In this document: piece by piece, positions 239 to 29,922 of the stretch
How the letters are laid out: every line of letters begins with the position of its first letter
How positions within the stretch are numbered: the first letter of the stretch is position 1
Source of the DNA: Giesbergeria sp.
GTDB lineage: Bacteria > Pseudomonadota > Gammaproteobacteria > Burkholderiales > Burkholderiaceae_C
DNA: 39,589 bases
Reading direction: 5' to 3'
Assembly: GCA_023150295.1 (NCBI GenBank)
Contig: JAKLLE010000031.1
Span: forward strand, 1-39,589
Program-made: the position numbers and the translations under genes
The notes under the pieces: model-generated
Database searches by the model: none
What the model was told of the DNA's origin: nothing
Seen by the model: the letters and a program-made list of their open reading frames with translations, nothing else

Positions 239-2068
239 TTACTTGCGCGCTGGTGGCACATCGGTACAAGACCCATGCGCCACTTCCGCCGCCATGCCGA
301 TGCTCTCGCCCAGCGTGGGGTGCGGGTGGATGGTCTTGCCGATGTCCACCGCATCTGCACCCATCTCGATGGCCAGGGCAATCTCGCCGATCATGTCGCC
401 CGCGTGGGTGCCGACCATGCCACCGCCCAGGATCTTGCCGTGGCCATGCGCCTCTGGTGAATCATCAAACAGCAGCTTGGTCACGCCTTCGTCGCGGCCG
501 TTGGCAATAGCGCGCCCGGACGCCGTCCAGGGGAACAGGCCCTTTTTGACCTTGATGCCTTGGGCCTTGGCCTGGTCTTCGGTGAGGCCCACCCAGGCCA
601 CTTCGGGGTCGGTGTAGGCCACGCTGGGGATGACGCGGGCGTTGAAGGCGGCGGCTGCCAATTCCTTGTTGCCTTGTAGTTCACCGGCAATCACTTCGGC
701 CGCCACATGGGCCTCGTGCACCGCCTTGTGCGCCAGCATGGGCTGGCCGACGATGTCGCCGATGGCGAAGATGTGGGGCACGTTGGTGCGCATCTGGATG
801 TCGACGTTGATGAAGCCACGGTCCGTCACCGCTACGCCAGCTTTGTCGGCGGCAATCTTCTTGCCGTTGGGGGTGCGGCCTACGGCCTGCAGCACGAGGT
901 CGTAGGTGCCTTCGCTCTTGGTACCGTCCAGGCCCTCGAACTGCACCTTGATGCCTTCGGGCGTGGCCTGGGCGCCCACGGTCTTGGTCTTGAGCAGGAT
1001 GTTGTCGAAGCGGTGCTTGTTCATCTTCTCCCAGACCTTGACCAGATCGCGGTCCGCACCCTGCATCAGGCCGTCCATCATCTCGACCACGTCCAGGCGG
1101 GCGCCCAGCGTGCTGTACACCGTGCCCATTTCCAGGCCGATGATGCCGCCGCCGACGATGAGCATCTTTTGGGGCACGCCCTGCAGGGCCAGTGCGCCGG
1201 TGGAGTCCACCACGCGCGGATCGTCGGGCATGAAGGGCAGGCGCACGGCCTGGCTGCCTGCGGCGATGATGGCCTTCTTGAAAGCCACGACCTTCTTGCT
1301 GCCGGTCTTGTCCTGGCCGGTGCCGGTGGTTTCTTCCACTTCGAGGTGGTTGGCACCCACAAAGGCGCCGTAGCCACGCACGATGGTGACCTTGCGCATC
1401 TTGGCCATCTGGCCCAGGCCGCCGGTGAGCTTGGCGATGACCTTTTCCTTGTGGCCGCGCAAGGTGTCCACATTGACCTGGGGCGCGCCAAAATCGACAC
1501 CTGCTGCCGAGAGGTGCGCCACTTCATCCATCACCGCCGCCACATGCAGCAGAGCCTTGCTGGGAATGCAGCCCACGTTGAGGCACACGCCGCCCAACTG
1601 GGCGTAGCGCTCCACCAGAACGACCTTCAGACCCAGGTCGGCGGCGCGGAACGCGGCACTGTAGCCGCCGGGGCCGCCGCCCAGCACCAGCACGTCGCAG
1701 TCCAGTTCGGCGCTGCCAGTGTAGCTAGATGCTTCAATTTTGATAGCTGCTTGCGCAGCACTGACGGGCGCTGGAGCCGTATTTTGCTCAATTTTTTGAG
1801 TGGCGGCGGGTGCGGGTGCCGACACCTCACCAGCCACCTCCAGCGTCAGCAACACGCTGCCCATGGCGACCTTGTCGCCCAGCTTTACCTTGAGCTCCTT
1901 GACCACGCCCGCGTGGCTGGACGGAATCTCCATGGAGGCCTTGTCGGACTCCACGGTGACCAGGCTTTGCTCGGCGCGGATGGTGTCGCCCACCTTGACG
2001 AGTACCTCGATCACGCCCACTTCGTCGAAGTCGCCGATGTCGGGGACTTGGATATCGATCACTGCCAT
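239..2068 (-). CDS. lpdA: dihydrolipoyl dehydrogenase (E3) with N-terminal lipoyl domain
   Basis: This is the E3 subunit of pyruvate dehydrogenase; it reoxidises dihydrolipoamide and reduces NAD+ using FAD. The 609-residue protein has a lipoyl domain at about 1-78 with the modifiable lysine K43 in VESDKASM. A linker at about 80-120 follows, then an E3 core with GGGPGG near 130-135, the redox disulfide C162/C167 in [13 protein letters not shown], and a C-terminal HPHPTLGE active-site motif. E. coli Lpd has no lipoyl domain; this longer form is known in several betaproteobacteria. The start at 2068 has AGGA at 8-nt spacing; an in-frame ATG two codons upstream (2074) is the alternative. The gene begins 13 bases after aceF and is last in the operon. 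The linker codons at about residues 90-116 coincide with a copy of the dispersed palindromic repeat and are AT-richer than their surroundings. Confidence 0.95.
1728..1797 (+). repeat. dispersed two-hairpin repeat, copy inside lpdA
   Basis: This copy has the core TTTTGATAGCTGC-TTGCGC and the tail GGGCGCTGGAGCCG followed by a T-rich end. Head to tail runs on the plus strand, antisense to lpdA. It is open in the lpdA frame and encodes the linker peptide EQNTAPAPV...AQAAIKIEA. It is very close to the copy in aceF: both share GGGCGCTGG and GCC and end in TTTTGCTC. The GCGC stem is weaker here than in the intergenic copies. Confidence 0.7.
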
Positions 2069-2081
2069 GTTCATGTTCCTT

Positions 2082-3434
2082 TCACAGCAGGATGCGGCGG
2101 TAGTCCGCCAGGATTTGGCCCAGGTACACGTTGAAGCGTGCAGCGGCAGCGCCGTCGATGACGCGGTGATCCCAGGTGAGCGACAGCGGCAGCATGAGGC
2201 GCGGCACAAACTGCTTGCCGTCCCACACGGGCTCCATCTGGCTCTTGCACACGCCCAGAATGGCCACCTCGGGCGCGTTGATGATGGGCGTGAAGTAGCG
2301 CCCACCAATGCCGCCCAGGCTGGAGATGGTGAAGCAGGCGCCGCTCATGTCGGCCGGGCCCAGCTTGCCGTCTCTGGCCTTCTTGGCCAGCTCGCTCATT
2401 TCCTGGCTGATCTGGAAGATGCCTTTCTTGTCTGCGTCCTTCAGCACGGGAACCACCAGGCCATTGGGCGTATCCGCCGCAAAGCCGATGTGGAAGTACT
2501 GCTTGTACACCAGGCTGTCGCCGTCCAGGCTGCTATTGAAGTCGGGGAACTTCTTGAGCGCGGCCACGCAGGCCTTGATGAGGAACGCGAGCATGGTGAC
2601 CTTGATGCCACTCTTCTCGTTTTCCTTGTTGAGCTGGACGCGGAACGCCTCCAGATCGGTGATGTCGGCGTCGTCGTGGTTGGTCACGGCGGGAATCACC
2701 ACCGCGTTGCGCGTGAGGTTGGCGCCGCTGATCTTCTTGATGCGGCCCAGTTCCTTGCGCTCCACCGGGCCGAACTTGCTGAAGTCCACCTTGGGCCAGG
2801 GCAGCAGGTCCAGACCCACGCCCGTGCCGCCACCACCCGCCGGGGCCTTGGCGGCCTGGGCCTTGGTCTGCACGCTGCCGGTCATCACGCGCTGGGTGAA
2901 GGCCTGCACGTCCTCGTGCGAAATGCGGCCCTTGGGGCCGCTGCCCTGGACTTCGGCCAGCGGCACGCCCAGTTCGCGCGCAAACTTGCGCACCGAGGGG
3001 CTGGCGTGCGGCAGGCCGCCGGTGGGCGTGCCGGGCTGGTGCGCGGGCTCGGCCACCGCTGCGGCAGCCACAACAGGCGCCGGGGTGGCGGCTGCCGGCG
3101 CTGCCACCACGGCAGGCGCTTCTGTTTTGATAGCTTCTGGCGCTTGTTCTACGGGCGCTGGGGCCGTTTTTTGCTCGGAGTCCCGGGCGGGCGCGCCTGC
3201 GGCGTCGAGCACCAGCACCACCGAACCCTGCTTGACCTTGTCGCCCACCTGCACGCGCAGTTCCTTGACCACGCCCGCGTGGCTCGATGGGATCTCCATC
3301 GACGCCTTGTCCGACTCGACCGTGATGAGCGATTGCTCGGCCTTGACCGTGTCGCCCGCCTTGACGAGCAGTTCGATCACGCCCACTTCGTCGAAATCCC
3401 CGATGTCCGGGACCTGGATGTCCATCAGTGCCAT
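2082..3434 (-). CDS. aceF: dihydrolipoyllysine acetyltransferase (E2 of pyruvate dehydrogenase)
   Basis: E2 is the structural core of pyruvate dehydrogenase and moves the acetyl group from lipoyl-lysine to CoA. The 450-residue protein has a single lipoyl domain (about 1-76, lysine K43 in VESDKASM). An Ala/Pro-rich linker follows, then a peripheral-subunit-binding domain (about 143-180) and the catalytic domain, with the DHRVIDG signature at residues 422-428. E. coli AceF has three lipoyl domains, so this is the short form. The start ATG has GGAG at about 7 nt. The gene lies 17 bases after aceE and 13 before lpdA. Its lipoyl domain closely resembles that of lpdA. Linker residues 86-107 are encoded by a copy of the dispersed repeat. 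Confidence 0.96.
3117..3177 (+). repeat. dispersed two-hairpin repeat, copy inside aceF
   Basis: This copy reads GCTTCTGTTTTGATAGCTTC-TGGCGCTT, a 7-nt loop, then GGGCGCTGGGGCCG and a T run. The stem GCGCTT/GGGCGC pairs with two G-T wobbles. Head to tail is on the plus strand, antisense to aceF. In the aceF frame it gives EQKTAPAPV...AIKTEA, nearly the lpdA peptide. Codons here are AT-richer than in the flanking Ala/Pro linker. Confidence 0.75.
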
Positions 3435-3451
3435 GTTTGTCTCCAGCGTTG

Positions 3452-6163
3452 TTATGCGTACAGCGGGTTGGTCTTGTCGGCCTTGATGCCGTACTTGGTG
3501 ATGGCATCGGCCACCTTGGCGGCGGGCACGCTGCCCTGCTCGCTCAGGGCCTTGAGCGCAGCCACGACGATGTAGTGGCGGTTGATCTCGAAGTGTTCAC
3601 GCAGCTTGCTGCGGAAGTCGCTGCGGCCAAAGCCGTCGGTGCCCAGCACCTTGTAGCCGCGCCCTGCGGGGATGAAGGGGCGGATCTGCTCGGCGTAGCT
3701 CTTCATGTAGTCGGTGGAAGCCACCACCGGGCCCGCATGGCCACCCAACTGGCGTGCCACGAAGGACGTGCGCGGCGCTTCCAGCGGGTGCAGCAGGTTC
3801 CAGCGCTCGCAGTCCTGGCCTTCACGGGCCAGTTCATTGAAGCTGGGGCAGCTCCAGACATCGGCCTGCACGCCCCAATCGGCGGCCAGCAGGGTCTGGG
3901 CTTCCAGCGATTCGCGCAGGATGGTGCCCGAGCCCAGCAATTGCACGCGCTTGTCCCCCTCGGCACCCGGCTTGCACAGGTACATGCCCTGGATGATCTG
4001 CTCTTCGGTGCCAGCGCTCAGGCCGGGCATGGCGTAGTTCTCGTTGAGCAGGGTGATGTAGTAGTACACGTTTTCCTGCTTCTCCACCATGCGCTTCAAG
4101 CCATGGTGCAGGATCACCGCCACTTCGTGCGCGAAGGTGGGGTCGTAGCTCACGCAGTTGGGGATGGTGCCGGCCAGAATGTGGCTATGGCCGTCCTCGT
4201 GTTGCAGGCCCTCGCCGTTGAGCGTGGTGCGCCCCGAGGTGCCGCCCAGCAGGAAGCCGCGCGCCTGCATGTCGCCCGCCGCCCAGGCCAGGTCGCCGAT
4301 GCGCTGGAAGCCGAACATGGAGTAGTACACGTAGAACGGCACCATGATGCGGTTGCTGGTGCTGTAGCTGGTGGCCGCCGCAATCCAGCTGGCCATGCCG
4401 CCCGCTTCGTTGATGCCTTCCTGCAGGATCTGCCCGGCCTTGTCCTCGCGGTAGTACATGACCTGGTCTTTGTCCACCGGGGTGTAGAGCTGGCCCTTGG
4501 GGTTGTAGATGCCGATTTGGCGGAACAGGCCTTCCATGCCGAAGGTACGGGCTTCGTCCACCAGGATGGGCACCACACGCGGGCCCAGGGCCTGGTCGCG
4601 CAGCAGTTGCGTCACGAATCGCACATAGGCCTGCGTGGTGCTGATCTCGCGGCCTTCGGCGGTGGGCTCCAGAATGGCCTTGAAGGTGTCGAGTGCGGGC
4701 ACGGTGAACTGCTCGTCGGCCTTGGCGCGGCGCTTGGGCAGGTAGCCACCCAGGGCTTTGCGGCGCTCGTGCAGGTAGCGCATTTCGGGCGTGTCTTCGG
4801 CCGGCTTGTAGTAGGGCAGCTTGGGCAGTTCGCTGTCGGGAATGGGGATGCTGAAGCGGTCACGGATGTACTTGATGTCTTCGTCGCTGAGCTTCTTGGT
4901 CTGGTGCACGGTGTTCTTGCCTTCACCGGCCTTGCCCATGCCATAGCCCTTGACGGTCTTGACCAGCAACACCACGGGCTGGCCGGACTTGTTGTTGTGC
5001 GCAGCGTGGAAAGCGGCGTACACCTTCTCGGGCTGGTGGCCGCCACGGCGCAGCTCAAACACCTCTTCGTCGCTCATGTGCTCCACGAGCTTCAAGGTCT
5101 CGGGGTAGCGGCCAAAGAAGTTCTTGCGCACGAAGGCGCCGTCGTTGGCCTTCATGGCCTGGTAGTCGCCGTCCAGCGTTTCCATCATGAGCTGCTTGAG
5201 CTTGCCGCTCTTGTCGCGTGCCAGCAGCTCGTCCCAGCCCTTGCCCCAGATCAGCTTGATGACGTTCCAGCCCGAGCCACGGAATTCGCCTTCGAGCTCC
5301 TGGATGATCTTGCCGTTGCCTCGCACCGGGCCGTCCAGACGCTGCAGGTTGCAGTTGACAACGAAGATGAGGTTGTCCAGCCCCTCGCGTGCAGCCAAGC
5401 CGATGGCGCCCAGCGACTCGGGCTCGTCCATCTCGCCGTCGCCCATGAAGGCCCAGACCTTGCGGTTTTCGGTGTTGGCAATGCCGCGGGCGTGCAGGTA
5501 CTTGAGGAAACGCGCCTGGTAAATGGCCATCAGCGGCCCCAGGCCCATCGACACGGTGGGGAACTGCCAGAACTCGGGCATCAGCTTGGGGTGCGGGTAG
5601 CTGGAAAGGCCCTTGCCATCCACCTCCTGGCGGAAGCTGTCGAGCTGCTCCTCGGTCAGGCGCCCTTCCAGGAAGGCGCGTGCGTAGATGCCGGGCGCGC
5701 TGTGGCCCTGGATGTAAAGGCAGTCACCGCCATGGTTTTCGCTCTCGGCGTGCCAAAAGTGGTTGAAGCCCGCACCCAGCATGGACGCCAGCGAGGCGAA
5801 GGAGCCAATGTGGCCGCCCAGGTCGCCGCCGTCGGCAGGGTTGAGGCGGTTGGCGCGCACCACCATGGCCATGGCGTTCCAGCGCATGTAGGCACGCAGG
5901 CGCTTTTCGATGGCGATGTTGCCGGGGCAGCGCGCCTCTTGCTCGGGCTCGATGGTGTTCACATAGCCGGTATTGGCCGAGAACGGCAGGTCGATGCTGT
6001 TCTGCCGTGCATGCTCCAGCAATTGCTCCAGCAGGTAGTGGGCGCGCTCGGGGCCCTCTTTCTCGATGACGGCGGCCAAGGCCTCCATCCATTCGCGGGT
6101 TTCCTGTTGGTCGGCGTCGTTGGCGGCGGGGGCCCCTGTGGCAGTGTCTTGCTGGGCGGACAT
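3452..6163 (-). CDS. aceE: pyruvate dehydrogenase E1 component, homodimeric type
   Basis: This thiamine-diphosphate enzyme decarboxylates pyruvate and acetylates the lipoyl group of AceF. The 903-residue protein matches the homodimeric E1 family (E. coli AceE is 887). The ThDP-binding motif GDGEMDEPES near residue 240 is followed by VVNCNLQRLDGPV. Other family landmarks include GHFASLASM-like AceE sequence near the N-terminus (here GSFASLASMLGAGF). The start at 6163 is chosen because GAGGAG lies 6 nt before the ATG; a longer in-frame extension to 6220 lacks such a site. It is the first gene of the aceE-aceF-lpdA operon, divergent from a two-component system. No PdhR-like GntR regulator is present beside it. 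Confidence 0.97.
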   Translation of the reverse strand: MSAQQDTATGAPAANDADQQETREWMEALAAVIEKEGPERAHYLLEQLLEHARQNSIDLPFSANTGYVNTIEPEQEARCPGNIAIEKRLRAYMRWNAMAMVVRANRLNPADGGDLGGHIGSFASLASMLGAGFNHFWHAESENHGGDCLYIQGHSAPGIYARAFLEGRLTEEQLDSFRQEVDGKGLSSYPHPKLMPEFWQFPTVSMGLGPLMAIYQARFLKYLHARGIANTENRKVWAFMGDGEMDEPESLGAIGLAAREGLDNLIFVVNCNLQRLDGPVRGNGKIIQELEGEFRGSGWNVIKLIWGKGWDELLARDKSGKLKQLMMETLDGDYQAMKANDGAFVRKNFFGRYPETLKLVEHMSDEEVFELRRGGHQPEKVYAAFHAAHNNKSGQPVVLLVKTVKGYGMGKAGEGKNTVHQTKKLSDEDIKYIRDRFSIPIPDSELPKLPYYKPAEDTPEMRYLHERRKALGGYLPKRRAKADEQFTVPALDTFKAILEPTAEGREISTTQAYVRFVTQLLRDQALGPRVVPILVDEARTFGMEGLFRQIGIYNPKGQLYTPVDKDQVMYYREDKAGQILQEGINEAGGMASWIAAATSYSTSNRIMVPFYVYYSMFGFQRIGDLAWAAGDMQARGFLLGGTSGRTTLNGEGLQHEDGHSHILAGTIPNCVSYDPTFAHEVAVILHHGLKRMVEKQENVYYYITLLNENYAMPGLSAGTEEQIIQGMYLCKPGAEGDKRVQLLGSGTILRESLEAQTLLAADWGVQADVWSCPSFNELAREGQDCERWNLLHPLEAPRTSFVARQLGGHAGPVVASTDYMKSYAEQIRPFIPAGRGYKVLGTDGFGRSDFRSKLREHFEINRHYIVVAALKALSEQGSVPAAKVADAITKYGIKADKTNPLYA

Positions 6164-6223
6164 GCGCGTCTCCTCGGGTTGTGGTGGTGGCAATTTAGTG
6201 GGTTCACTCCATTTTTGCACAGT

Positions 6224-6252
6224 TTTTTATTTTTTCAAATAGCGCCACTCAA
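6224..6252 (-). promoter_or_regulatory. candidate aceE operon promoter
   Basis: On the minus strand, TTGAGT (6252-6247) and TAAAAA (6229-6224) are separated by 17 bases. Each matches four of six positions of the sigma70 consensus. The site lies in an AT-rich gap about 60 bases upstream of the aceE start, the only clearly AT-rich spot between the two divergent operons. Confidence 0.35.
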
Positions 6253-6330
6253 TTTTGTATTGTGAAATTCAGAGAAATTCATGCCTCGGCTTCCAAGGAG
6301 GCAAACACCCCCTCCTCTACACTTGAGGAC

Positions 6331-8883
6331 ATGGCACAAACCACGCCGCAGCCCCTTTCTTCCAATGCCCCCGCGACCCTCGTTCAACGCTGGCGCGCCT
6401 GGTGGCGCAGCCTGTCGCCGGTTCGGCAAGACCGCTTTGCCGCCCTGGCCCCCCTGGCGGCCGTTCTTTTGTTCATGGCGGCCATCGTGGCGGCGTTCTG
6501 GTACCTGCGCGTGGAAGAAGGCGAGCGCGAGCAGGAGGCGCTGCGCCGCGATCTGGAATACGCCCAGCAGCGTGTGCGCCTGCGCCTGCTGGAGCGCCAG
6601 GAACAACTCATGCGCATCGCGCGCGACTTGGCCAACCAGGACATGGAGCGCACGCAGTTCGACCAGCGCGCGGAAACCTTGGTCAGCCAGTACCCCGAGC
6701 TCCAGTCCGTCACCTGGATCGACGATCGTGGCCAGGTCCGCGCCACCCATTCCGCACCCACCATTGCAGGCAGCCAGGTACGTGTGGCGGGCGAGGCATT
6801 GCAGGCCGGCAGCCTGACCGCCGACACTTACGCCCTCACGCGGGACCTGCAACAGCCGGTGTACGTGCAGCCCGAATCCAGCGCCAACGCCCCGGCCCCC
6901 TTGCTGCAGTTGCATGTGCCCATGAACGTGCAGGGCAAGTTTGCGGGCGTGGTGCTGGGCGAATACTCCATCGACAGCCTGCTGCGCTACGCGACCCCCA
7001 CCGAAGTGCTGGCGCGCTACGCCGTCACGCTGATCGACCAGAACCGCCAGGTGCTCGCGGGCACGCCCTTGCAGCCGCGCGGACGCGCCGCGCAGTGGAT
7101 GCCCTGGAGCGCCAAGGCCAACGAGTACGAAGTGCCCGTGTCCCCCGTGGGCAATGGCCTGGTGCTGCGCGCGCAGGCCTACCGCACCTCCCTGGGCGTG
7201 GTGGGCAGCGGCCTGTTCTGGCTGGTGGGCACGCTCAGCGCCATGACGGCCTGGATGCTGATTGCCACCTGGCGCCACACACGCCGGCGCATGCAGGCCC
7301 AAAACGCGCTGGTGATGGAAACCAACTTCCGCCGTGCCATGGAAAACTCCGTGCTCACCGGCATGCGCGCCCTGGACCTGCAAGGCCGCATCACCTACGT
7401 CAACGCTGCGTTCTGCCAGATGACGGGCTGGAGCGAAGCCGAGCTGGTGGGCCAGCTGCCACCGTTCCCGTACTGGCCCGAATCGGAGTACGACAACCTG
7501 CACGCCCGCCTGAAGGAAGAACTCAGCGGCAAGACCGTTCCCGGCGGCTTCCAGGTGCGTGTGCGGCGCAAGAACGGCACCTTGTTCGATGCCCGGCTGT
7601 ACGTGTCGCCCCTGATCGACGCTCACGGCCAACAGACGGGCTGGATGACATCGATGACCGACATCACCGAGCCCAACCGCATCCGTGAGCAGCTCAGTGC
7701 CTCGCACGAGCGCTTCACCATCGTGCTCGAATCGCTGGATGCCTCGGTCTCGGTGGCACCGCTGGGCAGCGAGGAGCTGCTGTTCGCCAACAAGCTGTAC
7801 CGCCAGTGGTTCGGCTCGCACACCGGGGGCCACCTGCAACTGGTGGCGCAGGCCGGCGTGCTGCCCACAGCCCCTGCGAGCGCCGAGGACGAAGACGGCC
7901 TCATGGGCCTGCCCACCTCCACGCTGACCAGCGCCAGTTCTGAAAACGCCGAAATTTTCCTGCCCGAACTGGGCAAATGGCTGGAGGTGCGCTCGCGCTA
8001 CCTGAGCTGGGTGGACGGGCGCCTGGCGCAGATGGTGATCGCCACCGACATCACCCCGCGCCGCCTGGCCGAGGAGCAGAGCGCACGCCAAACCGAGCGC
8101 GCCCAATCGGTCAGCCGCCTCATCACCATGGGCGAGATGGCCTCCAGCGTGGCGCACGAGCTGAACCAGCCGCTCACGGCCATCAGCAACTACTGCAGCG
8201 GCATCATCTCGCGCATCCGCTCGGGCAACATCACCGAGGAAGCCCTGCTCACCGCGATGGAGAAAACCGCGCACCAGGCCCAGCGCGCGGGGCAGATCAT
8301 CCAGCGTATCCGCGATTTCGTGAAAAAAAGCGCCCCCAACCGCCAGCTGGCCGATGTGCCCACCATGGTGAGCGAAGCCGTGGAGCTGGCCGAAATCGAG
8401 CTGCGCCGCCACAACGTGCGCCTGACGCACTACGTGGCCGCGCGCCTGCCGCAGGTGATGGCCGACTCCATCCTGATCGAGCAGGTGCTCATCAACCTGA
8501 TGAAGAACGGCGCCGAATCCATCGCCCAGGCCCAGCGCCCGCTGTCCAACCGCAGTGTGGAGCTGCGCGTGGTGCCGCGCCAGGTGGAAGGCCAGGACGG
8601 CGTGGAGTTTTCCGTACAGGACACCGGCAAGGGGCTGCCCCAAGAGGTGCAGGACCGGCTGTTCGAGGCCTTCTTCTCGACCAAGACCGAAGGCATGGGC
8701 ATGGGGTTGAACCTGTGCCGCAGCATCGTCGAGTCCCACCAGGGCCGGATGCAGGCAGAGAACCTCTACAATGGGCCGGAGGTCACGGGCTGCCGGTTTT
8801 CCTTCTGGCTGCCCCTCGCTGCGCCTGCCAACGACACGGCAGACACCGTGGCAAACGCACACCCCCCAAGGACAAACGCATGA
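6331..8883 (+). CDS. membrane PAS-domain sensor histidine kinase
   Basis: This inner-membrane sensor phosphorylates the response regulator encoded next. The 850-residue protein has a membrane segment at about 38-59, a periplasmic region of about 230 residues and a second membrane segment at about 289-312. Cytoplasmic PAS domains start near 329 (FRRAMENSVLTGMRALD) and 460. A HisKA domain has phospho-acceptor H609 in SVAHELNQPL, and the ATPase domain has N726 (NLMKNGAES), DTGKGLP near 764 and GMGMGLNL. The kinase core resembles the FixL/DctS type. The start is uncertain: ATG 6331 has GAGG only 2 nt away, and an upstream in-frame GTG exists at 6262. The ligand is unknown. Placement opposite the pyruvate dehydrogenase operon suggests, but does not show, sensing of a carboxylic acid. 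Confidence 0.9.
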   Translation: MAQTTPQPLSSNAPATLVQRWRAWWRSLSPVRQDRFAALAPLAAVLLFMAAIVAAFWYLRVEEGEREQEALRRDLEYAQQRVRLRLLERQEQLMRIARDLANQDMERTQFDQRAETLVSQYPELQSVTWIDDRGQVRATHSAPTIAGSQVRVAGEALQAGSLTADTYALTRDLQQPVYVQPESSANAPAPLLQLHVPMNVQGKFAGVVLGEYSIDSLLRYATPTEVLARYAVTLIDQNRQVLAGTPLQPRGRAAQWMPWSAKANEYEVPVSPVGNGLVLRAQAYRTSLGVVGSGLFWLVGTLSAMTAWMLIATWRHTRRRMQAQNALVMETNFRRAMENSVLTGMRALDLQGRITYVNAAFCQMTGWSEAELVGQLPPFPYWPESEYDNLHARLKEELSGKTVPGGFQVRVRRKNGTLFDARLYVSPLIDAHGQQTGWMTSMTDITEPNRIREQLSASHERFTIVLESLDASVSVAPLGSEELLFANKLYRQWFGSHTGGHLQLVAQAGVLPTAPASAEDEDGLMGLPTSTLTSASSENAEIFLPELGKWLEVRSRYLSWVDGRLAQMVIATDITPRRLAEEQSARQTERAQSVSRLITMGEMASSVAHELNQPLTAISNYCSGIISRIRSGNITEEALLTAMEKTAHQAQRAGQIIQRIRDFVKKSAPNRQLADVPTMVSEAVELAEIELRRHNVRLTHYVAARLPQVMADSILIEQVLINLMKNGAESIAQAQRPLSNRSVELRVVPRQVEGQDGVEFSVQDTGKGLPQEVQDRLFEAFFSTKTEGMGMGLNLCRSIVESHQGRMQAENLYNGPEVTGCRFSFWLPLAAPANDTADTVANAHPPRTNA

Positions 8884-9506
8884 GCTTGATTCCCAAAAAA
8901 GGAACTGTGTATGTCGTCGATGACGACGAGGCCGTTCGCGATTCGCTGCAATGGCTGCTGGAAGGCAAAGATTACCGGGTGCGCTGTTTTGATTCGGCCG
9001 AGTCCTTTCTCTCGCGCTACGACCCGCGCGAAGTCGCCTGCCTGATCGTGGACATCCGCATGGCCGGCATGACCGGCCTGGACCTGCAGGACCGACTGAT
9101 CGAACGCAAATCCCCCCTGCCCATCGTCTTCATCACCGGCCACGGCGACGTGCCCATGGCGGTCGATACGATGAAGAAAGGCGCGCTGGACTTCATTCAA
9201 AAGCCCTTCAACGAAGACGCGCTGGTCAACCTGGTGGAGCGCATGCTCGACGTGGCGCGCCAGTCCTTTGCGGGCTACCAACAGGCCGCCAGCCGCGAAG
9301 CGCTGCTGGCCAAGCTGACCAGCCGCGAGGCGCAGGTGCTGGAGCGCATCGTCGCCGGGCGCCTGAACAAGCAGATCGCCGACGACCTGGGCATCAGCAT
9401 CAAGACCGTGGAAGCGCACCGCGCCAACATCATGGAAAAGCTGGGCGCCAACACCGTGGCCGACCTGCTCAAGATCGCCCTGGGCCAAGCCGCAGCCAAG
9501 GCCTGA
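8880..9506 (+). CDS. FixJ/DctR-type response regulator (receiver + LuxR helix-turn-helix)
   Basis: This transcription factor is the partner of the sensor kinase. The 208-residue protein has a receiver domain (about 9-125) with acidic DDD near 14-16, phospho-acceptor D58 in LIVDIRM, T86 in FITGHGD and K108 in FIQKPF. A LuxR/GerE DNA-binding domain follows at about 143-203 (LTSREAQVLERIVAG, ISIKTVEAHRANIMEKLG). Its ATG overlaps the kinase stop as ATGA, so translation is probably coupled; AAGGAC precedes it. The best-known relatives control nitrogen fixation or C4-dicarboxylate uptake. The target here is unknown, and the divergent aceE operon is an obvious candidate by position only. Confidence 0.93.
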   Translation: MSLIPKKGTVYVVDDDEAVRDSLQWLLEGKDYRVRCFDSAESFLSRYDPREVACLIVDIRMAGMTGLDLQDRLIERKSPLPIVFITGHGDVPMAVDTMKKGALDFIQKPFNEDALVNLVERMLDVARQSFAGYQQAASREALLAKLTSREAQVLERIVAGRLNKQIADDLGISIKTVEAHRANIMEKLGANTVADLLKIALGQAAAKA

Positions 9507-9566
9507 TTTGCTATTGTTTTGATAGCTGCTAGCGCTTTACCCATAAGCGCCAGAGGCCATTTTTAT
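9507..9566 (+). repeat. dispersed two-hairpin repeat, intergenic copy before folD
   Basis: The first hairpin is GCTAT (9510-9514), a 7-nt loop and ATAGC (9522-9526). The second is GCGCTT (9532-9537), a 7-nt loop and AAGCGC (9545-9550). The tail is AGGCCATTTTT. The copy starts at the response-regulator stop codon and ends 13 bases before folD. Another small inverted repeat, TGATGA-TT-TCATCA (9567-9580), runs into the folD start codon. Confidence 0.85.
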
Positions 9567-9579
9567 TGATGATTTCATC

Positions 9580-10431
9580 ATGACAGCCCAACTGATCGAC
9601 GGCAACGCCCTCTCCCGCCAACTGCGCTCCGACGTGGCCGAGCGCGCCCTCGCCCTCAAGGCCAAAGGCGTGACCCCCGGCCTGGCCGTGGTGCTGGTGG
9701 GGGACAACCCGGCCAGCCAGGTCTATGTGCGCAACAAGGTCAAGGCCTGCCATGACGCCGGGCTGCATTCGGTGCTGGAGCAGTACCCCGCCGACCTGAG
9801 CGAAGCCGAGCTGCTGGCGCGCGTGGAGGCCCTGAACAACGACCCGGCCATCCACGGCATCCTGGTGCAGTTGCCGCTGCCCGCGCACATCGACGCGCAA
9901 AAGGTCATCGAGGCCATCTCGCCCGCCAAGGACGTGGACGGCTTCCACATCGCCAGCGCCGGCGCGCTGATGACCGGCATGCCCGGCTTCTGGCCCTGCA
10001 CGCCCTATGGCTGCATGAAGATGCTCGAATCCATCGGCTACGAGCTCAAGGGCAAGCACGCCGTGGTCATCGGCCGCAGCAACATCGTGGGCAAGCCCAT
10101 GGCACTGATGCTGCTGGCCCAGGACGCCACGGTCACTGTCTGCCATTCGCGCACCAAGGACCTCAAGGCGCAAACGCTGCAGGCCGACGTGATCGTCGCC
10201 GCCGTGGGCAAGCGCAACGTGCTGACGGCCGACATGGTCAAGCCCGGCGCCGTGGTGCTGGACGTGGGCATGAACCGCAACGACGAAGGCAAGCTCTGCG
10301 GCGACGTGGACTTCGACGGCGTAAAAACCGTGGCCAGCCACATCACCCCCGTACCCGGCGGCGTCGGCCCCATGACCATCACCATGCTGCTGGTCAACAC
10401 GCTGGAAGCCGCCGAACGCGCGGCGGCCTGA
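9580..10431 (+). CDS. folD: bifunctional methylenetetrahydrofolate dehydrogenase/cyclohydrolase
   Basis: FolD interconverts 5,10-methylene- and 10-formyl-tetrahydrofolate in the cytoplasm, using NADP+, for purine and formyl-Met-tRNA synthesis. The 283-residue length is typical. Family motifs are YVRNK with Y49 and K53 (the catalytic YxxxK), KDVDGFH, the Rossmann-fold segment [14 protein letters not shown] and the C-terminal [14 protein letters not shown]. The gene begins just after a dispersed repeat. No clear Shine-Dalgarno sequence is visible, and a short inverted repeat overlaps the start. Downstream, prlC follows after 69 bases on the same strand. Confidence 0.96.
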
Positions 10432-10500: not shown

Positions 10501-12531
10501 ATGAGCAATCCTCTTCTCGACTTTTCTGGCCTGCCCCTGTTCGACCGCATCCGGCCGGAGCATGTGGCACCTGCCATCAACACCCTGCTGGCCAAGGCCA
10601 ATGCCGCGCTGGAGACGGTGACGGCCAGCGACTTCCCCGCGCGCTGGGACGCCATTGCCAAGGTCTTGGACGTGGCCACCGAGGAGCTGGGCCGCGCCTG
10701 GGGCGCCGTCAGCCACCTCAACAGCGTGATGGACACGCCCGAGCTGCGCGCCGCCTACAACGAGGCCCTGCCGCGCGTCACCGAGTTCTGGACCCGCCTG
10801 GGTGCCGACGAGCGCCTGTATGCCAAATACAAGGCCATCGATCCGAACAGCGTGAACGCCGAACAGGCCCAGGCGCTCAAGAACGCCATCCGCAACTTCG
10901 TGCTCTCGGGCGCCGAGCTGACCGGCGCCGCCAAGCAGCGCTACGCCCAGATCCAGGAGCGCATGGCCGAGCTGCAGCAGAAGTTCAGCGAGAACACGCT
11001 GGACGCGACCGACGCCTTTGCCTATTACGCCACCGAACCCGAGCTCGATGGTGTGCCCGAGGACGTGCGCCAGGCCGCCCGCGCCGCCGCCCAGGCCGAG
11101 GGCCAGGACGGCTTCAAGCTCACGCTGAAAATGCCCTGCTACCTGCCGGTGATGCAGTTCGCCACCAGCAGCGCACTGCGCGAGCGCCTGTACCGCGCCT
11201 ACACCACGCGCGCCTCCGACCAGGCCGAGGGCGATGCCACGCGCTTTGACAATGGCGCACTGATCCGGGAAATCCTGGCACTGCGCCAGGAAGAAGCGCA
11301 GTTGCTGGGCTATGGGAGCTTTGGCGAAGTCTCCGTGGTGCCCAAGATGGCCGAATCACCCACCCAGGTGGTCGGCTTCCTGCGCGACCTGGCCCAGCGC
11401 GCGCGCGTCCACGCCGAAAAGGACGTGGCCGACCTGCGCGCCTTTGCCGCAGAGCACCTGGGCCTCTCCAACCCACAGGCCTGGGACTGGCCCTACATCT
11501 CCGAAAAGCTCAAGGAGGCGCGCTATGCCTTCAGCGAGCAGGAGGTCAAGCAGTACTTCACTACGCCGCGCGTGCTCGCCGGGCTGTTCCACATCATCGA
11601 GACGCTGTTCGAGGTGACCATCCGCAGCGACCAGGCGCCCGTGTGGCACCCCGCCGTGGCGTTCTACCGCATCGAGCGCGGCGGCCAGCTCGTGGGCCAG
11701 TTCTACCTGGATCAACCCGCCCGCCCCGGCAAACGCGGCGGCGCCTGGATGGACGACGTGCGCACGCGCTGGCTGCGCCCCGACACCGGCCAGTTGCAAA
11801 CCCCGGTGGCGCACCTGGTGTGCAACTTTGCCGACGGGGTGGACGGCAAGCCCGCACTGCTCACGCACGACGACGTGATCACCCTGTTCCACGAGTTTGG
11901 CCACGGCCTGCACCACATGCTCACACAGGTGAGCGAGCGCGACGTTTCAGGCATTGGCGGCGTGGAGTGGGACGCGGTCGAGCTGCCCAGCCAGTTCATG
12001 GAAAACTTCTGCTGGGAATGGGGTGGGCTGCAGCGCATGACAGCGCACGTGGACACGGGCGCACCGCTGCCCCGCGCGCTGTTCGACAAGATGCTGGCGG
12101 CCAAGAACTTCCAGAGCGGCATGCAGACGCTGCGCCAGATCGAATTTGCGCTGTTCGACATGCTGCTGCACACCGAGCACGACCCGGCACAGGACTTCCT
12201 GCCCCTGCTCGACCTGGTGCGCTCGGAGGTTGCCGTGCTGCAGCCGCCCGCCTTCAGCCGCACGGCGCACACCTTCAGCCACATCTTTGCCGGGGGGTAC
12301 GCTGCCGGGTACTACAGCTACAAATGGGCCGAGGTGCTCTCCGCCGACGCCTATGCCGCGTTCGAGGAAACCGCCCAACCCGACGGCAGCCACCACCCCG
12401 ACACGGGCCGCCGCTACCGCGAAACCATCCTCGAAGCTGGAGGCAGCCGCCCGGCCATGGAATCCTTCAAGGCCTTCCGTGGTCGCGAACCGAGCTTGGA
12501 TGCGCTGCTGCGCCACCAGGGCATGGCATGA
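10501..12531 (+). CDS. prlC: oligopeptidase A (M3 family zinc metallopeptidase)
   Basis: This cytoplasmic metallopeptidase degrades short peptides, including cleaved signal peptides. The 676-residue protein is close to E. coli PrlC/OpdA (680). The zinc motif HEFGH is at residues 464-468, and a third ligand is expected at E494 in VELPSQ. The start is set by the typical N-terminus MSNPLLDF...RPEHVAPAI; a longer in-frame extension to 10453 does not match the family. A long copy of the dispersed repeat begins right after the stop codon. Confidence 0.95.
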   Translation: MSNPLLDFSGLPLFDRIRPEHVAPAINTLLAKANAALETVTASDFPARWDAIAKVLDVATEELGRAWGAVSHLNSVMDTPELRAAYNEALPRVTEFWTRLGADERLYAKYKAIDPNSVNAEQAQALKNAIRNFVLSGAELTGAAKQRYAQIQERMAELQQKFSENTLDATDAFAYYATEPELDGVPEDVRQAARAAAQAEGQDGFKLTLKMPCYLPVMQFATSSALRERLYRAYTTRASDQAEGDATRFDNGALIREILALRQEEAQLLGYGSFGEVSVVPKMAESPTQVVGFLRDLAQRARVHAEKDVADLRAFAAEHLGLSNPQAWDWPYISEKLKEARYAFSEQEVKQYFTTPRVLAGLFHIIETLFEVTIRSDQAPVWHPAVAFYRIERGGQLVGQFYLDQPARPGKRGGAWMDDVRTRWLRPDTGQLQTPVAHLVCNFADGVDGKPALLTHDDVITLFHEFGHGLHHMLTQVSERDVSGIGGVEWDAVELPSQFMENFCWEWGGLQRMTAHVDTGAPLPRALFDKMLAAKNFQSGMQTLRQIEFALFDMLLHTEHDPAQDFLPLLDLVRSEVAVLQPPAFSRTAHTFSHIFAGGYAAGYYSYKWAEVLSADAYAAFEETAQPDGSHHPDTGRRYRETILEAGGSRPAMESFKAFRGREPSLDALLRHQGMA

Positions 12532-12633
12532 TAAAAAGTGAGCTGGCTGCGCTTGTCATCATTGGTTTTCAGGCACTTTTATGCCTTGAACACCCGTGAA
12601 TCAAGCGCAAGCAGCTATCCATATTGAAGCAAA
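12532..12633 (-). repeat. long variant of the dispersed repeat, after prlC
   Basis: Read on the minus strand, this copy starts GCTTCAATATGGATAGCTGC-TTGCGCTT, the usual head. The middle is expanded: an outer stem (12541-12554 with 12603-12616, 12 of 14 pairs) encloses a second hairpin (about 12564-12575 with 12582-12594). It is about 100 nt rather than 60. It fills most of the 117-base gap between prlC and the next gene and could end transcription, but no clean T run shows this. Confidence 0.7.
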
Positions 12634-12648
12634 CCCACCGGAGGCCCC

Positions 12649-13314: not shown

Positions 13315-13323
13315 AGGCAGGGT

Positions 13324-14013
13324 TCAGAAGTTCAGGGTCTTGACGCCCTGGGCCGTGCCCAGAAGGCAGACCTGCGCTTTCTGGTGCGCAAAAATACCGA
13401 CCGTCACCACACCGGGCCACTGGTTGATCTCCGATTCCAGCGCCAGCGGGTCGGTGATCTGCAAACCCGTCACATCCAGAATGTGCTGACCGTTGTCCGT
13501 CACCAGGGGCTGGCCGTCCTTCAGGCGCAGCGTGGCCTGGCCGCCCAGCGCCGCAAAGCGCCGCGCCACATGGGCCGTGGCCATGGGGATCACCTCCACG
13601 GGCAGCGGAAAGCGGCCCAGCGTATCCACCAGCTTGGACTCGTCGGCAATGCAGACAAACTGGCGTGCCAGCGCGGCCACGATCTTCTCGCGCGTGAGCG
13701 CCGCACCGCCGCCCTTGACCATGTGACCCTGGCCGTCGATCTCGTCGGCGCCGTCGATGTACACGCCCAGTTGCTCCACCTCGTTGGCATCCAGCACAGC
13801 AATGCCGATGGCGCGCAGGCGCTCGGTGCTGGCCACCGAACTGGACACCGCGCCGCGCACCTGGTCCTTGACCGTGGCGAGAGCATCGATGAACTTGTTG
13901 ACCGTGGAGCCCGTGCCCACGCCCACAATGTCGCCGGGCACGATGTAGCGCAGCGCAGCCTGGCCGACCAGGGCCTTGAGTTCGTCTTGGGTCAGGGGGG
14001 TAGATGTCGTCAT
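13324..14013 (-). CDS. rpiA: ribose-5-phosphate isomerase A
   Basis: RpiA interconverts ribose 5-phosphate and ribulose 5-phosphate in the non-oxidative pentose phosphate pathway. The 229-residue protein (E. coli 219) carries GVGTGSTV near 31-38, [22 protein letters not shown]-type sequence (catalytic Asp/Glu/Lys of the family), and [10 protein letters not shown]. The start at 14013 fits the family N-terminus, but there is no clear ribosome-binding site. It is divergent from pyrD, with 35 bases between the two starts. Confidence 0.96.
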
Positions 14014-14048
14014 GGGAGAAAATCGGGGGTGAACCCTGAATTATCCCC

Positions 14049-15116
14049 ATGTCACTGATCCCCTACGCCCTCACCCGCCCCTTTCTGTTCGGCCTGGACC
14101 CCGAAGCCGCCCACGACCTGACCATGGACATGCTCGCGCGTGGCCAGGGCACGCCGCTGCAATGGGCCTGGTGCAATGAAACGGTACACGACCCCATCGA
14201 GCTGGCGGGCCTGCGCTTTCCCAACCGCGTGGGCCTGGCCGCCGGGCTGGACAAGAACGCGCGCTGCATCGACGCGCTGGGTGCCATGGGCTTTGGCTTT
14301 GTCGAGGTCGGCACCGTCACGCCCAAAGGGCAACCCGGCAACCCCAAGCCGCGCATGTTCCGCCTGCCCGAGGCACGCGCACTCATCAACCGCCTGGGCT
14401 TCAACAACGACGGGCTGGACGCCTTTCTGCACAATGTGCAGCAGGCCCAGTTCCGCCGCCAGCAAAAGCACCCCATGCTGCTGGGCCTGAACATCGGCAA
14501 GAACGCCGCCACACCCATCGAGGACGCCACGCGCGATTACCTCACCTGCCTGGACGGCGTGTACCCGCATGCCGACTACGTCACCGTCAACATCAGCTCC
14601 CCCAACACCAAGAACCTGCGCGCGCTGCAAAGCGACGCAGCGCTCGACGGCCTGCTGGAAGCGATTGCCGAGCGCCGCGAGCAACTGGCACAGCAGCACG
14701 CCCGCGCCGACGGCACGCAGCGGCGCGTGCCCTTGTTCGTGAAAATCGCTCCCGACCTGGACGAAGACCAGGTCGCCGTGATCGCCGCCACCCTGATGCG
14801 CCACGGCATGGACGGCGTGGTGGCCACCAACACCACCATCGGTCGCAGCGCCGTGCAGGGCATGCGCCACGCCGAGGAAACCGGCGGCCTGAGCGGCGCC
14901 CCGGTGCTGGAGCCGAGCAACAAGGTGATCCGCCTGCTGCGCGCCACTCTAGGCAACGGCTTCCCCATCATCGGCGTGGGCGGCATCCTGAGCGCAGAAG
15001 ACGCACTGAGCAAAATCCGCGCGGGCGCGGACGTGGTGCAGATCTACACCGGTCTGATCTACGAAGGCCCGGCGCTGGTGCAGCGCGTGGCCAGGGCGAT
15101 CAAGGCGGCAGGTTAA
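14049..15116 (+). CDS. pyrD: dihydroorotate dehydrogenase (quinone), class 2
   Basis: PyrD is a membrane-associated FMN enzyme that oxidises dihydroorotate to orotate with ubiquinone, the fourth step of pyrimidine synthesis. The 355-residue length and N-terminal helix ([19 protein letters not shown]) are typical of class 2. Motifs are [36 protein letters not shown] (catalytic serine region, about 181-187), VATNTT and GVGGILS. The 3' end overlaps the convergent yqjK-like gene by 4 bases. Confidence 0.97.
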
Positions 15117-15430
15117 CGCCCGCCCCGCAACTGCATCAACAGCGGCAGAACCACACCCGCCCAGCGCACCAGGCGGCGCGGGCCGGCCACGGCGGCGCCG
15201 GCGGCCACCAAGGCCAGGGCCAGGGGGTGGTCCTTGGCAAAGGCCAGCGCGCGCTGGGCCAGGGGTTCGGCGGCATTCATCGCGGCTTGCTGGCGGGCCA
15301 GTTCGCGTTCTTGCTGCCGCTCCTGGCGGCGCGCGCGCAGGCGCTGGCGCTGGGCAGCCATGCGTTCGCGCAGTTGGCCCTTGCGCTCGGCAATGCTCTG
15401 GGGCGTGAGTGGGAGGCTGGGCTCGGTCAC
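15113..15430 (-). CDS. YqjK-like small membrane protein
   Basis: The 105-residue protein has an Arg/Gln-rich amphipathic N-terminal half (about 15-50) and a hydrophobic segment at about 68-84, followed by RRLVRWAG. The layout and the HP...LVRWA motif resemble E. coli YqjK; function is unknown. It overlaps the preceding gene by ATGA (15427-15430) and overlaps pyrD by 4 bases at its 3' end. It is the last of three genes with the order yqjD-yqjE-yqjK. Confidence 0.78.
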
Positions 15431-15822
15431 AACTGCTCCTTGATCTCGCGCCAGTCGCGCAGCAATTCCTCGCGCGTCAGCGCAAAGGCATTGCTGGCGG
15501 CGTTGGCCACACGCACCAGGGCCGCCAGCGCCACCCCCCAGGCCAGCAGCCAGCCCACGGCCAGCAGCCAGGCCACCAGGGTGCGGTGCGGGCTGTCCCA
15601 GAACTGCACCAGTAGCGCCACGGACAACAGCGTCAGCGCCACCACCATGAGTGCACCCACGGCCAGCGTGAGCAGCAGCAACTGGCGCAGGCGGGCCTTT
15701 TGCTCATGCCATTCCAGCCGGGCCAGTTCGGCGCGGTCCTCGATGGCGATGGCGCCTTCCAGCGCGGCGGCACGCCAGCGCAGGACGAAGGCTTCCAGAC
15801 CCAGCAGCGAGATCCAGTTCAT
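15427..15822 (-). CDS. phage-holin-like (YqjE family) membrane protein
   Basis: The 131-residue protein has two strongly hydrophobic segments, at about 47-70 (LLLLTLAVGALMVVAL) and about 82-105, flanked by charged regions. This is the pattern of the Phage_holin_3_6/YqjE family. Despite the family name nothing here points to a prophage. The start at 15822 (MNWISLLGLE) lies 4 bases after the stop of the DUF883 gene, and the stop overlaps the start of the yqjK-like gene. Its role is unknown. Confidence 0.82.
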   Translation of the reverse strand: MNWISLLGLEAFVLRWRAAALEGAIAIEDRAELARLEWHEQKARLRQLLLLTLAVGALMVVALTLLSVALLVQFWDSPHRTLVAWLLAVGWLLAWGVALAALVRVANAASNAFALTREELLRDWREIKEQL

Positions 15823-15826
15823 GCGT

Positions 15827-16138
15827 TCAGCGGCGTGCCAGAAGGAAACCCACCAGCGCGCCCACCGCCAGCGCGGCACCGGCCACGCGCCAGGGTTCGT
15901 CGTGCGCATAGCGGTCGGCGGCACGGGCGGCGTCCTTGGCCTGGTTGGCGGCTTCCTGGGCGGCGCGGATGGCGGCATCGCGCACGTTGTGCATGCCCTC
16001 GTCCAGGCGGTCACGCAGTGCCTTGATCTCGGGCACGCTGTCCAGGTTCTTGTTGGCCATGAGCGTGCGCATTTCGGAAACAAGCTTTTCCAGTTCGGTC
16101 TGGGTGCTGTGCAGGGAATCGGTGGTCTGAGTCGTCAT
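15827..16138 (-). CDS. DUF883 (YqjD/ElaB/YgaM family) tail-anchored protein
   Basis: The 103-residue protein has a long charged helix (about 10-80) and a C-terminal membrane anchor (VAGAALAVGALVGFLLARR). E. coli relatives YqjD, ElaB and YgaM are stationary-phase inner-membrane proteins, and YqjD binds ribosomes. An AAAGG site lies 6 bases before the ATG. It is the first gene of a three-gene operon that mirrors E. coli yqjD-yqjE-yqjK. Confidence 0.88.
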   Translation of the reverse strand: MTTQTTDSLHSTQTELEKLVSEMRTLMANKNLDSVPEIKALRDRLDEGMHNVRDAAIRAAQEAANQAKDAARAADRYAHDEPWRVAGAALAVGALVGFLLARR

Positions 16139-16263
16139 ACATGCCTTTCGGTGGAACGTTGGAAACTATGCATGCCACACAACACAGGGCTGTGCGCCAG
16201 AGTGGCTCATCTTAACGATCCCCACAGCACCCAGCGTAAAAAACTGTGGCCCACGCAAGGACA

Positions 16264-17364
16264 TCAGGCCACGATTTGCGCCACGTGCTCACCCAGGGCC
16301 AGTGCGCTGGTGAGCCCCGGCGACTCGATGCCAAACAGGTTGACCAGGCCCGGCACGCCATGCGCGGCAGGCCCCTGGACCACGAAGTCGGTGATGGCGG
16401 CCCCTTGCGCATCGAACACCTTGGGCCGTATGCCCGCGTAACCAGGCTCCAGCGCCCCGTCGCGCAGACCGGGCCAGTACTTGCGCACCTCGGCGTAGAA
16501 GGCCTGGCCGCGTGCCGGGTCCACGGCCAGGTCGTCGGGCGCATCCACCCACTGCACGTCGGGCCCAAAGCGTGCCTGGCCGCCCAGATCCAGCGTCAGG
16601 TGCACGCCCAGGCCAGCGGCCTCGGGCACGGGGTAGATCAGGCGCGAGAACGGAGCGCGGCCCGCCAGGGTGAAGTAGTTGCCCTTGGCGTAGCGCGGCT
16701 GCGGCACATGCACAGCGTCCAGCCCCCGGGTGTTGCGCGCCAGTGCGGGTGCGGCCAGCCCGGCGGCGTTGACCACCGTGGCAGCCTGCAGGTGCGTGCC
16801 ATCATTTACTATGATATTCATAGCGCTTTGCGCATATTCCATGAGCGCTACAGCCGAATTGACTGCCAATATTCCTCCGGCCTGCTCGACATCGGCCAGC
16901 AGGCCCAGCATCAGCGCATGGCTGTCCACAATGCCGGTGTCGGGCGAGTGCAATGCGGCCACGCATTCGAGGGCGGGCTCCAGGGCACGCGCCTCGTCGT
17001 GCTCCAGCCATTGCAGTGCCACGCCATTGCCCAGTGCATGCGCCTGCACGGCGCGCAGGGATTCGCGCTGCGCATCGGCGGTGGCCACCACCAGCTTGCC
17101 GCAGCGCTGGTGGGGAATGGCGCGCTCGGCGCAATAGGCGTACAGCAGCTCGCGCCCCTGCACGCACAGCCGCGCCTTGAGCGAACCCTGCGGGTAGTAC
17201 AGCCCGGCGTGGATGACCTCGCTGTTGCGCGCACTGGTGCGTGTGCCAAAGGTGTGGGCGGCTTCCAGCACCAGCACCTCGCGCCCGCGCAGGGCCAGCG
17301 CGCGGGCCACGGCCAGGCCCACCACGCCTGCGCCGACCACCACGCAATCGACTTGCTCTGCCAT
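16264..17364 (-). CDS. FAD-dependent oxidoreductase, LhgO/L-2-hydroxyglutarate dehydrogenase-like
   Basis: The 366-residue protein has the FAD-binding GxGxxG sequence [16 protein letters not shown] at its N-terminus and [16 protein letters not shown] near 41-58, a hallmark of the LhgO/L2HGDH family. It also has [10 protein letters not shown] and a C-terminal [14 protein letters not shown]. Relatives oxidise L-2-hydroxy acids with FAD, passing electrons to the quinone pool; the substrate here is unproven. It starts 6 bases after the amidohydrolase gene, so it is probably last in the seven-gene operon. Residues about 164-187 are encoded by an AT-rich copy of the dispersed repeat with rare ATA/TTG codons, in a region that is variable in the family. 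Confidence 0.88.
16805..16868 (+). repeat. dispersed two-hairpin repeat, copy inside the FAD oxidoreductase gene
   Basis: The first stem is CTATG/CATAG and the second is AGCGCT (16822-16827)/AGCGCT (16844-16849), followed by ACAGCC and an AT-rich tail. Head to tail is on the plus strand, antisense to the gene. It is read in the same frame as the lpdA and aceF copies and gives [16 protein letters not shown]. Confidence 0.65.
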
Positions 17365-29913: not shown

Positions 29914-29922
29914 ACTCAAACC

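Follow-up and report, generated by a model that had tools for sequence, protein, structure and literature searches.

The cores of DNA uptake sequences are up to 12 nt long, and the uptake signal sequence (USS) of Pasteurellaceae occurs about once per kb. Core lengths of 9 and 10 nt are given in one report, which suggests that uptake sequences arise as point mutations change existing sequence, not through insertion of the whole sequence (PMC1939737). Rickettsia palindromic elements of about 150 bp are described as integrating in frame into genes and modifying the product (PMC10969869). The Betaproteobacterial repeat element (BRE) is reported to be ~90 bp long, with 69% GC and at most 29 copies per genome in Bordetella, some of them in tandem and sometimes entirely within coding sequences (PMC3110155), and repetitive extragenic palindromes (REPs) are given as 20-40 bp long with a conserved tag, GTAG or CGTC, at one end of the palindrome (PMC3733652). 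Here we analyze a dispersed repeat found in a 39,589-nt stretch of Giesbergeria sp. (contig JAKLLE010000031.1 of assembly GCA_023150295.1, forward strand), referred to below as the window. The repeat lies both between genes and inside protein-coding sequence, and wherever orthologues could be aligned its in-gene copies replace codons with little or no change in length. This suggests that it is kept for a role of the DNA rather than for the encoded peptide.

The repeat shares features with each of these systems. Like the BRE, it is a betaproteobacterial dispersed repeat with some copies within coding sequence, but it has 42% GC and, by extrapolation, ~480 copies per genome. Like the REPs mobilized by REP-associated tyrosine transposases (RAYTs), it is a short dispersed palindrome of intergenic spacers, but it shows no link to Y1 transposases. 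With the Rickettsia elements it has in common a palindromic family that is intergenic as well as translated in many unrelated genes in restricted frames, whereas it is 60-75 nt and not ~150 bp long and causes no net insertion at testable genes. The nearest formal parallel is provided by the uptake sequences (the USS and the DNA uptake sequence, DUS, of Neisseriaceae), although an uptake role of this repeat is putative. Similarly to them, it occurs in hundreds of copies in both orientations, preferentially in non-coding DNA (112 of 160 copies are intergenic), and arises in place, length-neutrally, at tolerant protein positions, substitution and patch replacement not being told apart. It differs from them in being 60-75 nt long, partly palindromic and sparser (~1 per 7-8 kb), with no significant halo of mismatched versions in coding sequence. 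We did not find the repeat described in the literature on Comamonadaceae palindromic or dispersed repeats, REPs, Rickettsia elements, in-frame repeats and uptake sequences, nor its 14-nt motif strings in any paper, in searches that covered few subscription papers.

The repeat was detected with a covariance model, R2, built on 29 copies, 7 of which lie inside genes other than those of the first three cases considered below. The search covered a genome sample of 61 stretches (1.24 Mb, about a third of the genome) and gave 164 matches at E <=1e-4; 160 were kept after two fragments at stretch ends and two matches below 24 bits had been dropped. The consensus of 107 intergenic copies is GTTTATTTGCTATTAAATTAATAGCTGCTAGCGCTTGTTGGACGAGCGCTAGAGGCCAATTTTACTTAAAATCTT, with a GCTAT/ATAGC arm, a GCGC...GCGC dyad and AT-rich flanks, a conserved span of 60-75 nt and a mean GC content of 0.424 in intergenic copies, against 66% in the window. 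The 14-nt core ATAGCTGCTNGCGC has 287 genome matches with at most one mismatch (132 forward, 155 reverse), whereas the reversed control has 9. Since some of the R2 training copies are genic, a hidden Markov model (HMM) trained on 92 intergenic copies only was used to repeat key tests. A conserved RNA structure was considered and rejected, as covariation does not exceed that of shuffled alignments and genes carry the repeat in both orientations; Rfam gave zero matches within the window at gathering thresholds.

Four copies of the window lie inside genes:

239..2068, minus strand: lpdA, dihydrolipoyl dehydrogenase with an N-terminal lipoyl domain
1723..1797, plus strand, antisense to the gene: repeat copy in the lpdA linker after the lipoyl domain (R2 48.8 bits, E 1.8e-15; translated peptide)
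2082..3434, minus strand: aceF, pyruvate dehydrogenase E2
3110..3184, plus strand, antisense to the gene: repeat copy in the aceF linker after the lipoyl domain (R2 39.0 bits, E 2.1e-11; translated peptide)
16264..17364, minus strand: L-2-hydroxyglutarate-oxidase-like FAD oxidoreductase (best NCBIfam model below its cut-off)
16800..16873, plus strand, antisense to the gene: repeat copy in the oxidoreductase gene (R2 41.8 bits, E 1.5e-12)
33190..35220, plus strand: aroA-cmk fusion, 3-phosphoshikimate 1-carboxyvinyltransferase / cytidylate kinase
33941..34015, plus strand, sense: fourth in-gene copy, in the aroA part (R2 58.1 bits, in the training set; codon alignment; alignment to PDB 3nvs)

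The earlier note had reported related peptides, read antisense in one frame, in lpdA, aceF and the oxidoreductase, and this is borne out by the translations and by the R2 matches, all three copies being outside the training set. They share one codon phase, antisense phase 0, and score 44.5 (lpdA linker), 34.3 (aceF linker) and 34.4 bits (oxidoreductase) with the intergenic-only HMM. The note called the three genes unrelated, which applies to the oxidoreductase; lpdA and aceF are related through their lipoyl domains, which are homologous (78% identity over 242 nt) and are each followed by the linker that holds the copy. The aroA copy, which overlaps a conserved 11-residue AroA motif, had been missed.

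The effect of the repeat on gene length was examined in codon alignments of 13 in-gene sites across a set of genomes of the same genus (G120 to G131), a non-carrier being a same-genus orthologue that scores below 10 bits. Eleven of these sites could be scored, alignment of the lpdA and aceF linkers being too poor; two of the eleven, in the oxidoreductase gene and in one further gene (on stretch L172), have no non-carrier. Of 29 comparisons with non-carriers, 27 are without net codon difference, and two, both in aroA, differ by three codons. When six rows below 55% identity (trx-like and pteridine-reductase genes, possible paralogues) are set aside, 21 of 23 comparisons in 8 genes show no codon difference; the comparisons stem from few genomes, mainly G121 and G124, and are not independent of one another. 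Orthologue alignment with and without the segment, as proposed in the earlier note, thus shows codons overwritten and not added, the data being thin for lpdA, aceF and the oxidoreductase.

Comparison with outgroup families is of importance here because the absence from G121 and G124 is likely a loss, which alone would be compatible with an old insertion. In dxr, lpxB and rlmB, 10 of 11 outgroup alignments are gap-free in the motif; the remaining one has extra length in the outgroup. Comparison of eight hosts with PDB homologues gave differences of about -11 to +12 residues in and around the motif, whereas an inserted copy would give ~+24. In particular, no residues are added in the oxidoreductase (compared with PDB 3dme), Dxr, PurK and HscA, the last being shorter, and AroA has ~+5 residues relative to 3nvs. 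According to the earlier note, the same peptides in distant families would mark them as ancestral protein sequence. This applies in part: the lpxB, dxr, leuS, purK and aroA segments have the same or nearly the same length elsewhere, and the peptide of the pyruvate dehydrogenase (PDH) linkers is not universal. The overwriting can be seen in rlmB, where FTESFWPVAPPAWVQGAGRVVVLA in G121 without the motif corresponds to FSESFWPLAPAQYAQAAIKIIVLA in G128 with it, and in AroA, where the same residues are encoded by GCC AGC TAC TTC ATT GCC GCC in G124 and by GCT AGC TAT TTC ATA GCT GCT in the Giesbergeria genome analyzed here.

Codon choice points to the same level of conservation. Of the real genes, 34 score at least 20 bits, but when all 1113 predicted genes were recoded with random synonymous codons, or their codons permuted within each gene so that every protein stayed unchanged, none of the 10 resulting sets had more than one such gene (0-1). 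The intergenic-only HMM found 35 real genes versus 0 and 0 in one recoded and one permuted set. Among carriers, codon identity at columns with an invariant residue is 0.82 within the motif, based on 1243 pairs, compared with 0.63 elsewhere, based on 35620 pairs. ATA is a rare codon (2.0% of Ile codons in the genome sample), yet where an Ile column is invariant it accounts for 13 of 23 codons within the motif, compared with 16 of 573 elsewhere. In 7 of 11 genes the motif window falls within the top 5% of the gene for codon conservation. The superimposed motif distorts codon usage locally.

Genes of the sample were predicted with our own codon-usage gene caller (1113 genes). Besides the 112 intergenic copies, 9 lie over a gene end and 39 are wholly inside 38 genes, ~3% of the total. 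An NCBIfam family match at E <=1e-10 was obtained for 32 of the 38 hosts, and those above a curated cut-off include AcnA, RecC, LeuS, AroA-Cmk, LpxB, FabD, LpdA, Dxr, HscA, AceF, the CCA-adding enzyme, PriA, PurK, MurI, MurG and GcvP. A further host (L016:12475-13755), with no model above cut-off, is another E2 acyltransferase, and here too the copy follows the lipoyl domain. Both orientations occur among in-gene copies.

The count of reading frames proposed in the earlier note, made by hand on the in-gene copies with one partial copy (L168) re-registered, shows a strong bias: 16 of 39 copies are in sense frame 1 and 16 in antisense frame 0, so that two frames take 32, with 3 in sense 0, 3 in antisense 1, 1 in antisense 2 and none in sense 2. 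For the 35 in-gene copies of exactly 75 nt the counts for sense 1, antisense 0, sense 0, antisense 1, antisense 2 and sense 2 are 15, 14, 3, 2, 1 and 0. The number of stop-free cases among 107 intergenic copies is 74 for sense 1, 42 for antisense 0, 51 for antisense 1, 38 for sense 2, 6 for antisense 2 and zero for sense 0 (10 of the 160 copies, not exactly 75 nt long, are left out of these last two counts). Avoidance of stops can explain only part of the bias, since antisense 1 and sense 2 are little used despite being open in many intergenic copies; all three antisense-1 copies sit at a gene end. Two in-gene copies (L142:6099-6173 and L145:4213-4287) use the frame that is closed in 107 of 107 intergenic copies, Glu codons replacing the consensus stops. 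The gene for EarP holds two copies, L167:7042-7116 (+) and 7476-7550 (-), which differ in orientation and frame.

Linkers of the PDH complex were analyzed in 80 named relatives and the window. Segments scoring at least 15 bits were found in 20 of 81 LpdA and 20 of 117 AceF linkers, all 40 of them antisense; this is 40 of 198 in total, compared with a mean of 0.9 (largest 2) over 20 codon permutations. An Ala/Pro linker, which is a near-match on the antisense strand in one frame, often takes up the motif, and for this reason two of the first three cases lie in PDH linkers. Within the genus, matches placed by hand from coordinates were found in the aceF linker of G123 (43.7 bits), G126 (43.7) and G131 (28.1) and in the lpdA linker of G126 (46.1) and G131 (57.6). 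The lpdA and aceF copies differ by 21 nt in register to the lipoyl domain; presence in the genus does not discriminate between their origin with the lipoyl-domain duplication and separate origins. In PDH linkers of other genera, other repeat-like peptides were observed, namely PPPQPSPLPGEGSK, PPPQPSPVTGEGSK, VIASEARQS and SVER-type stretches (L048, AceF; L106 and L074, LpdA; L065 and L072, LpdA and AceF), so such linkers may have taken up repeats of several families.

The repeat is unevenly distributed. Core matches number 527 in G120, 287 in the genome of the window, 261 in G122, 258 in G123, 246 in G125, 221 in G126, 169 in G128, 168 in G131, 84 in G130, 42 in G129, 19 in G124, 16 in G121 and 15 in G127, with reversed-core controls of at most 11 per genus genome and with G127, G128 and G130 incomplete. 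Near-complete carriers thus have 168-527 matches, whereas the counts of G121 and G124 hardly exceed background and that of G129, their sister, falls in between, a single genus spanning the range from background (15-19) through 42 to 527. In a midpoint-rooted genus tree of 11 genomes, based on one 13-kb block, G121 and G124 have nested positions, and a loss is apparently the simplest reason for their lack of the repeat. Among 120 family genomes, each from another genus, five reach 430-790 core matches and most have few. Searched by blastn with one copy, 72,556 plasmid records yielded three that match, two from Comamonas and one from Diaphorobacter, and 50,697 phage records yielded none. Turnover is low: 17 of 17 comparable copies are shared with G122, which is 92% identical, as judged from hand-matched coordinates and with two weak copies outside the 160 among the 17. 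The intergenic copies of the window, of which those at 29851 and 39410 are not comparable with G122, are as follows:

9502..9576, plus strand: copy filling the spacer upstream of gene 9580-10431 (74.0 bits, in the training set; spacer comparison)
12564..12638, minus strand: copy between tandem genes (30.4 bits)
29851..29925, plus strand: copy between tandem genes (70.3 bits, in the training set)
35289..35363, minus strand: weak, degraded copy outside the 160 (17.5 bits, E 0.0055)
39410..39484, plus strand: intergenic copy (57.2 bits, in the training set)

We favor, with moderate confidence, an explanation in which the repeat serves as a recognition motif at the level of the DNA, maintained by selection or by biased recombination, superimposed on codons and formally similar to uptake sequences. 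The motif is ~60-75 nt long, and part of the Comamonadaceae, bacteria of water and soil, carries several hundred copies of it in each genome. In the genes that could be tested it was apparently written over codons that already resembled it, the protein being largely kept at about the same length. The peptides and their shared frames would be by-products of the DNA motif: few of the six frames are stop-free, and mainly those giving tolerable Ala-rich peptides would persist, the antisense frame being especially suited to the Ala/Pro-rich PDH linkers. Once maintenance at the DNA level stops, the motif would erode. A DNA-binding or recombination machinery, of the uptake type or organizing the chromosome, presumably recognizes the motif, the repeat-poor clade has probably lost it, and the overwriting probably proceeded by substitution rather than by replacement of short patches.

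Several observations weigh against this interpretation. The motif window lies outside the top 5% for codon conservation in leuS, purK, the pteridine reductase gene and cca, and the value for the oxidoreductase rests on 14 codon pairs. FabD (+6), LeuS (+6) and MurI (+12) have additional residues relative to PDB homologues, the aroA copy is three codons longer than the corresponding segment in two relatives without the repeat, and the length of the intergenic spacer differs with and without the element. Gene scores come close to all-or-none, with 47 genes reaching 10 bits and 34 reaching 20 bits, and core near-matches in coding sequence outside detected copies are not significantly in excess (75 at two mismatches versus 34 +/- 25 shuffled; the intergenic excess is slight, 12 versus 4.5 +/- 3.0). 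The missing coding halo and the all-or-none scores favor acquisition of the motif as a unit. ComEC does not track the repeat: both carriers and non-carriers have it (42 of 45 genomes, two of the ComEC-less ones being incomplete), and its distribution is uninformative. The absent halo and the great length of the motif speak against a simple uptake drive. We know of no uptake or chromosome-architecture motif as long as 60-75 bp, and no recognizing protein was found in this analysis. Evidence for even spacing is mixed, and we do not claim it: counts per 20 kb are under-dispersed (variance/mean 0.70 versus 1.56, P 0.001), but the spacing is not regular, the low coefficient of variation of gaps within stretches being lost when adjacent stretches are joined (0.943 versus 0.901).

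More tentatively, the picture may be extended to an actively kept 60-75 bp recognition motif lying on the codons of ~3% of genes, essential ones included, whose machinery was lost in G121 and G124, with G129 half-way and erosion genome-wide. If this is true, the genus offers a natural experiment in which the machinery could be found by comparison of gene content. A single genus with rich, half-eroded and bare genomes is in any case a setting in which to seek both the force and its protein, and a DNA motif that overwrites codons of LeuS, AroA, LpxB, Dxr and other conserved enzymes makes a DNA-level force visible in essential genes.

The main rival, which we regard as unlikely, is short-patch replacement, in which functionless element DNA, as a single strand or in repair, is copied over sites of chance similarity, recurrent copying keeps the copies uniform, and selection removes damaging cases. 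It would yield length-neutral copies at once and fits the absent halo and the near all-or-none gene scores; recurrent copying would likewise make the codons of carriers alike. A literature search for a related process, short-patch double illegitimate recombination, returned no paper. However, native residues persist through the replaced stretch, as in LeuS, where KLSTLDKVAADASVVGA in G121 and KLFAIDKIAADASVAGA in the genome of the window have residues in common throughout. In addition, scores at the same site are graded among species (from 49.5 to 17.9 bits in dxr, for example), and the 17 copies comparable with G122 include zero presence/absence differences.

The earlier note proposed that the repeat, like the Rickettsia palindromic elements, had been inserted into coding sequence as a mobile palindrome and that selection favored copies with an open frame; this now appears improbable. 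The element does lie in translated as well as intergenic sequence, in frames far from random, and that part of the proposal stands. The spacer filled by the copy at 9502, upstream of a gene that we take to be folD-like, measures 69-94 nt in eight genomes of the genus that carry the element there and 46 or 30 nt in two that lack it, in line with insertion, and in aceF, where linkers are not alignable, insertion could have taken place. However, little or no length is added relative to relatives and outgroups, which contradicts insertion for 8 genes, the protein segments exist in other families, and the median length of the LpdA linker is 61 residues with the motif (n=20) and 58 without it (n=57). 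The likeness to the Rickettsia elements therefore fails in their defining feature, in-gene copies being without net insertion where testable. Insertion is the usual explanation for the spread of dispersed palindromes and for their presence in proteins as additional peptides, but the same picture arises without it at the tested genes. Peptides read in the same frame and common to unrelated proteins thus need not be insertions.

It is very improbable that the repeat is of the REP type, mobilized by a RAYT/Y1 transposase, and that its genic copies are relics. The arrangement of a dispersed palindrome in spacers does resemble that of REPs: copies are enriched between convergent genes, which flank 26 of 107 placed intergenic copies compared with 55 of 574 spacers measuring 60 nt or more, and depleted between divergent genes (8 of 107 versus 121 of 574). 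The distribution of Y1_Tnp (PF01797), however, is unlinked to the repeat, as G122 has none with 261 core matches and G121 four with 16, and the in-gene copies are length-neutral. Finally, chance resemblance of Ala/Pro-rich coding sequence to the motif, which could account for weak matches in GC-rich linkers, is scarcely credible and is refuted as a general explanation by the loss of nearly all matches on synonymous recoding or permutation and by the excess in PDH linkers over permuted sequences.

In-gene copies are located farther from intergenic copies than random coding positions (median 6.7 versus 4.1 kb, P 0.012), which is no more than a weak hint. Some minor observations concern other loci. 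In Limnohabitans sp. Rim28 (L102:5001-7719) the lpdA match extends over 2719 nt compared with ~1830, perhaps with ~880 nt of internal extra sequence. A record titled Akkermansia muciniphila (L101, CALQKH020000001.1) contains a Comamonadaceae-like pdh locus with 81% LpdA identity and is probably mislabelled or a mixed bin. A second dispersed repeat family, ~100-160 nt long and 73-91% identical, was noticed at L024 ~11122-11253 and L172 ~3547-3711, and has many copies in G122, G123, G126 and G131. A stretch of at most 190 nt at L172 ~7833-8022 recurs at few places in G122 and G131 (78-97% identical).

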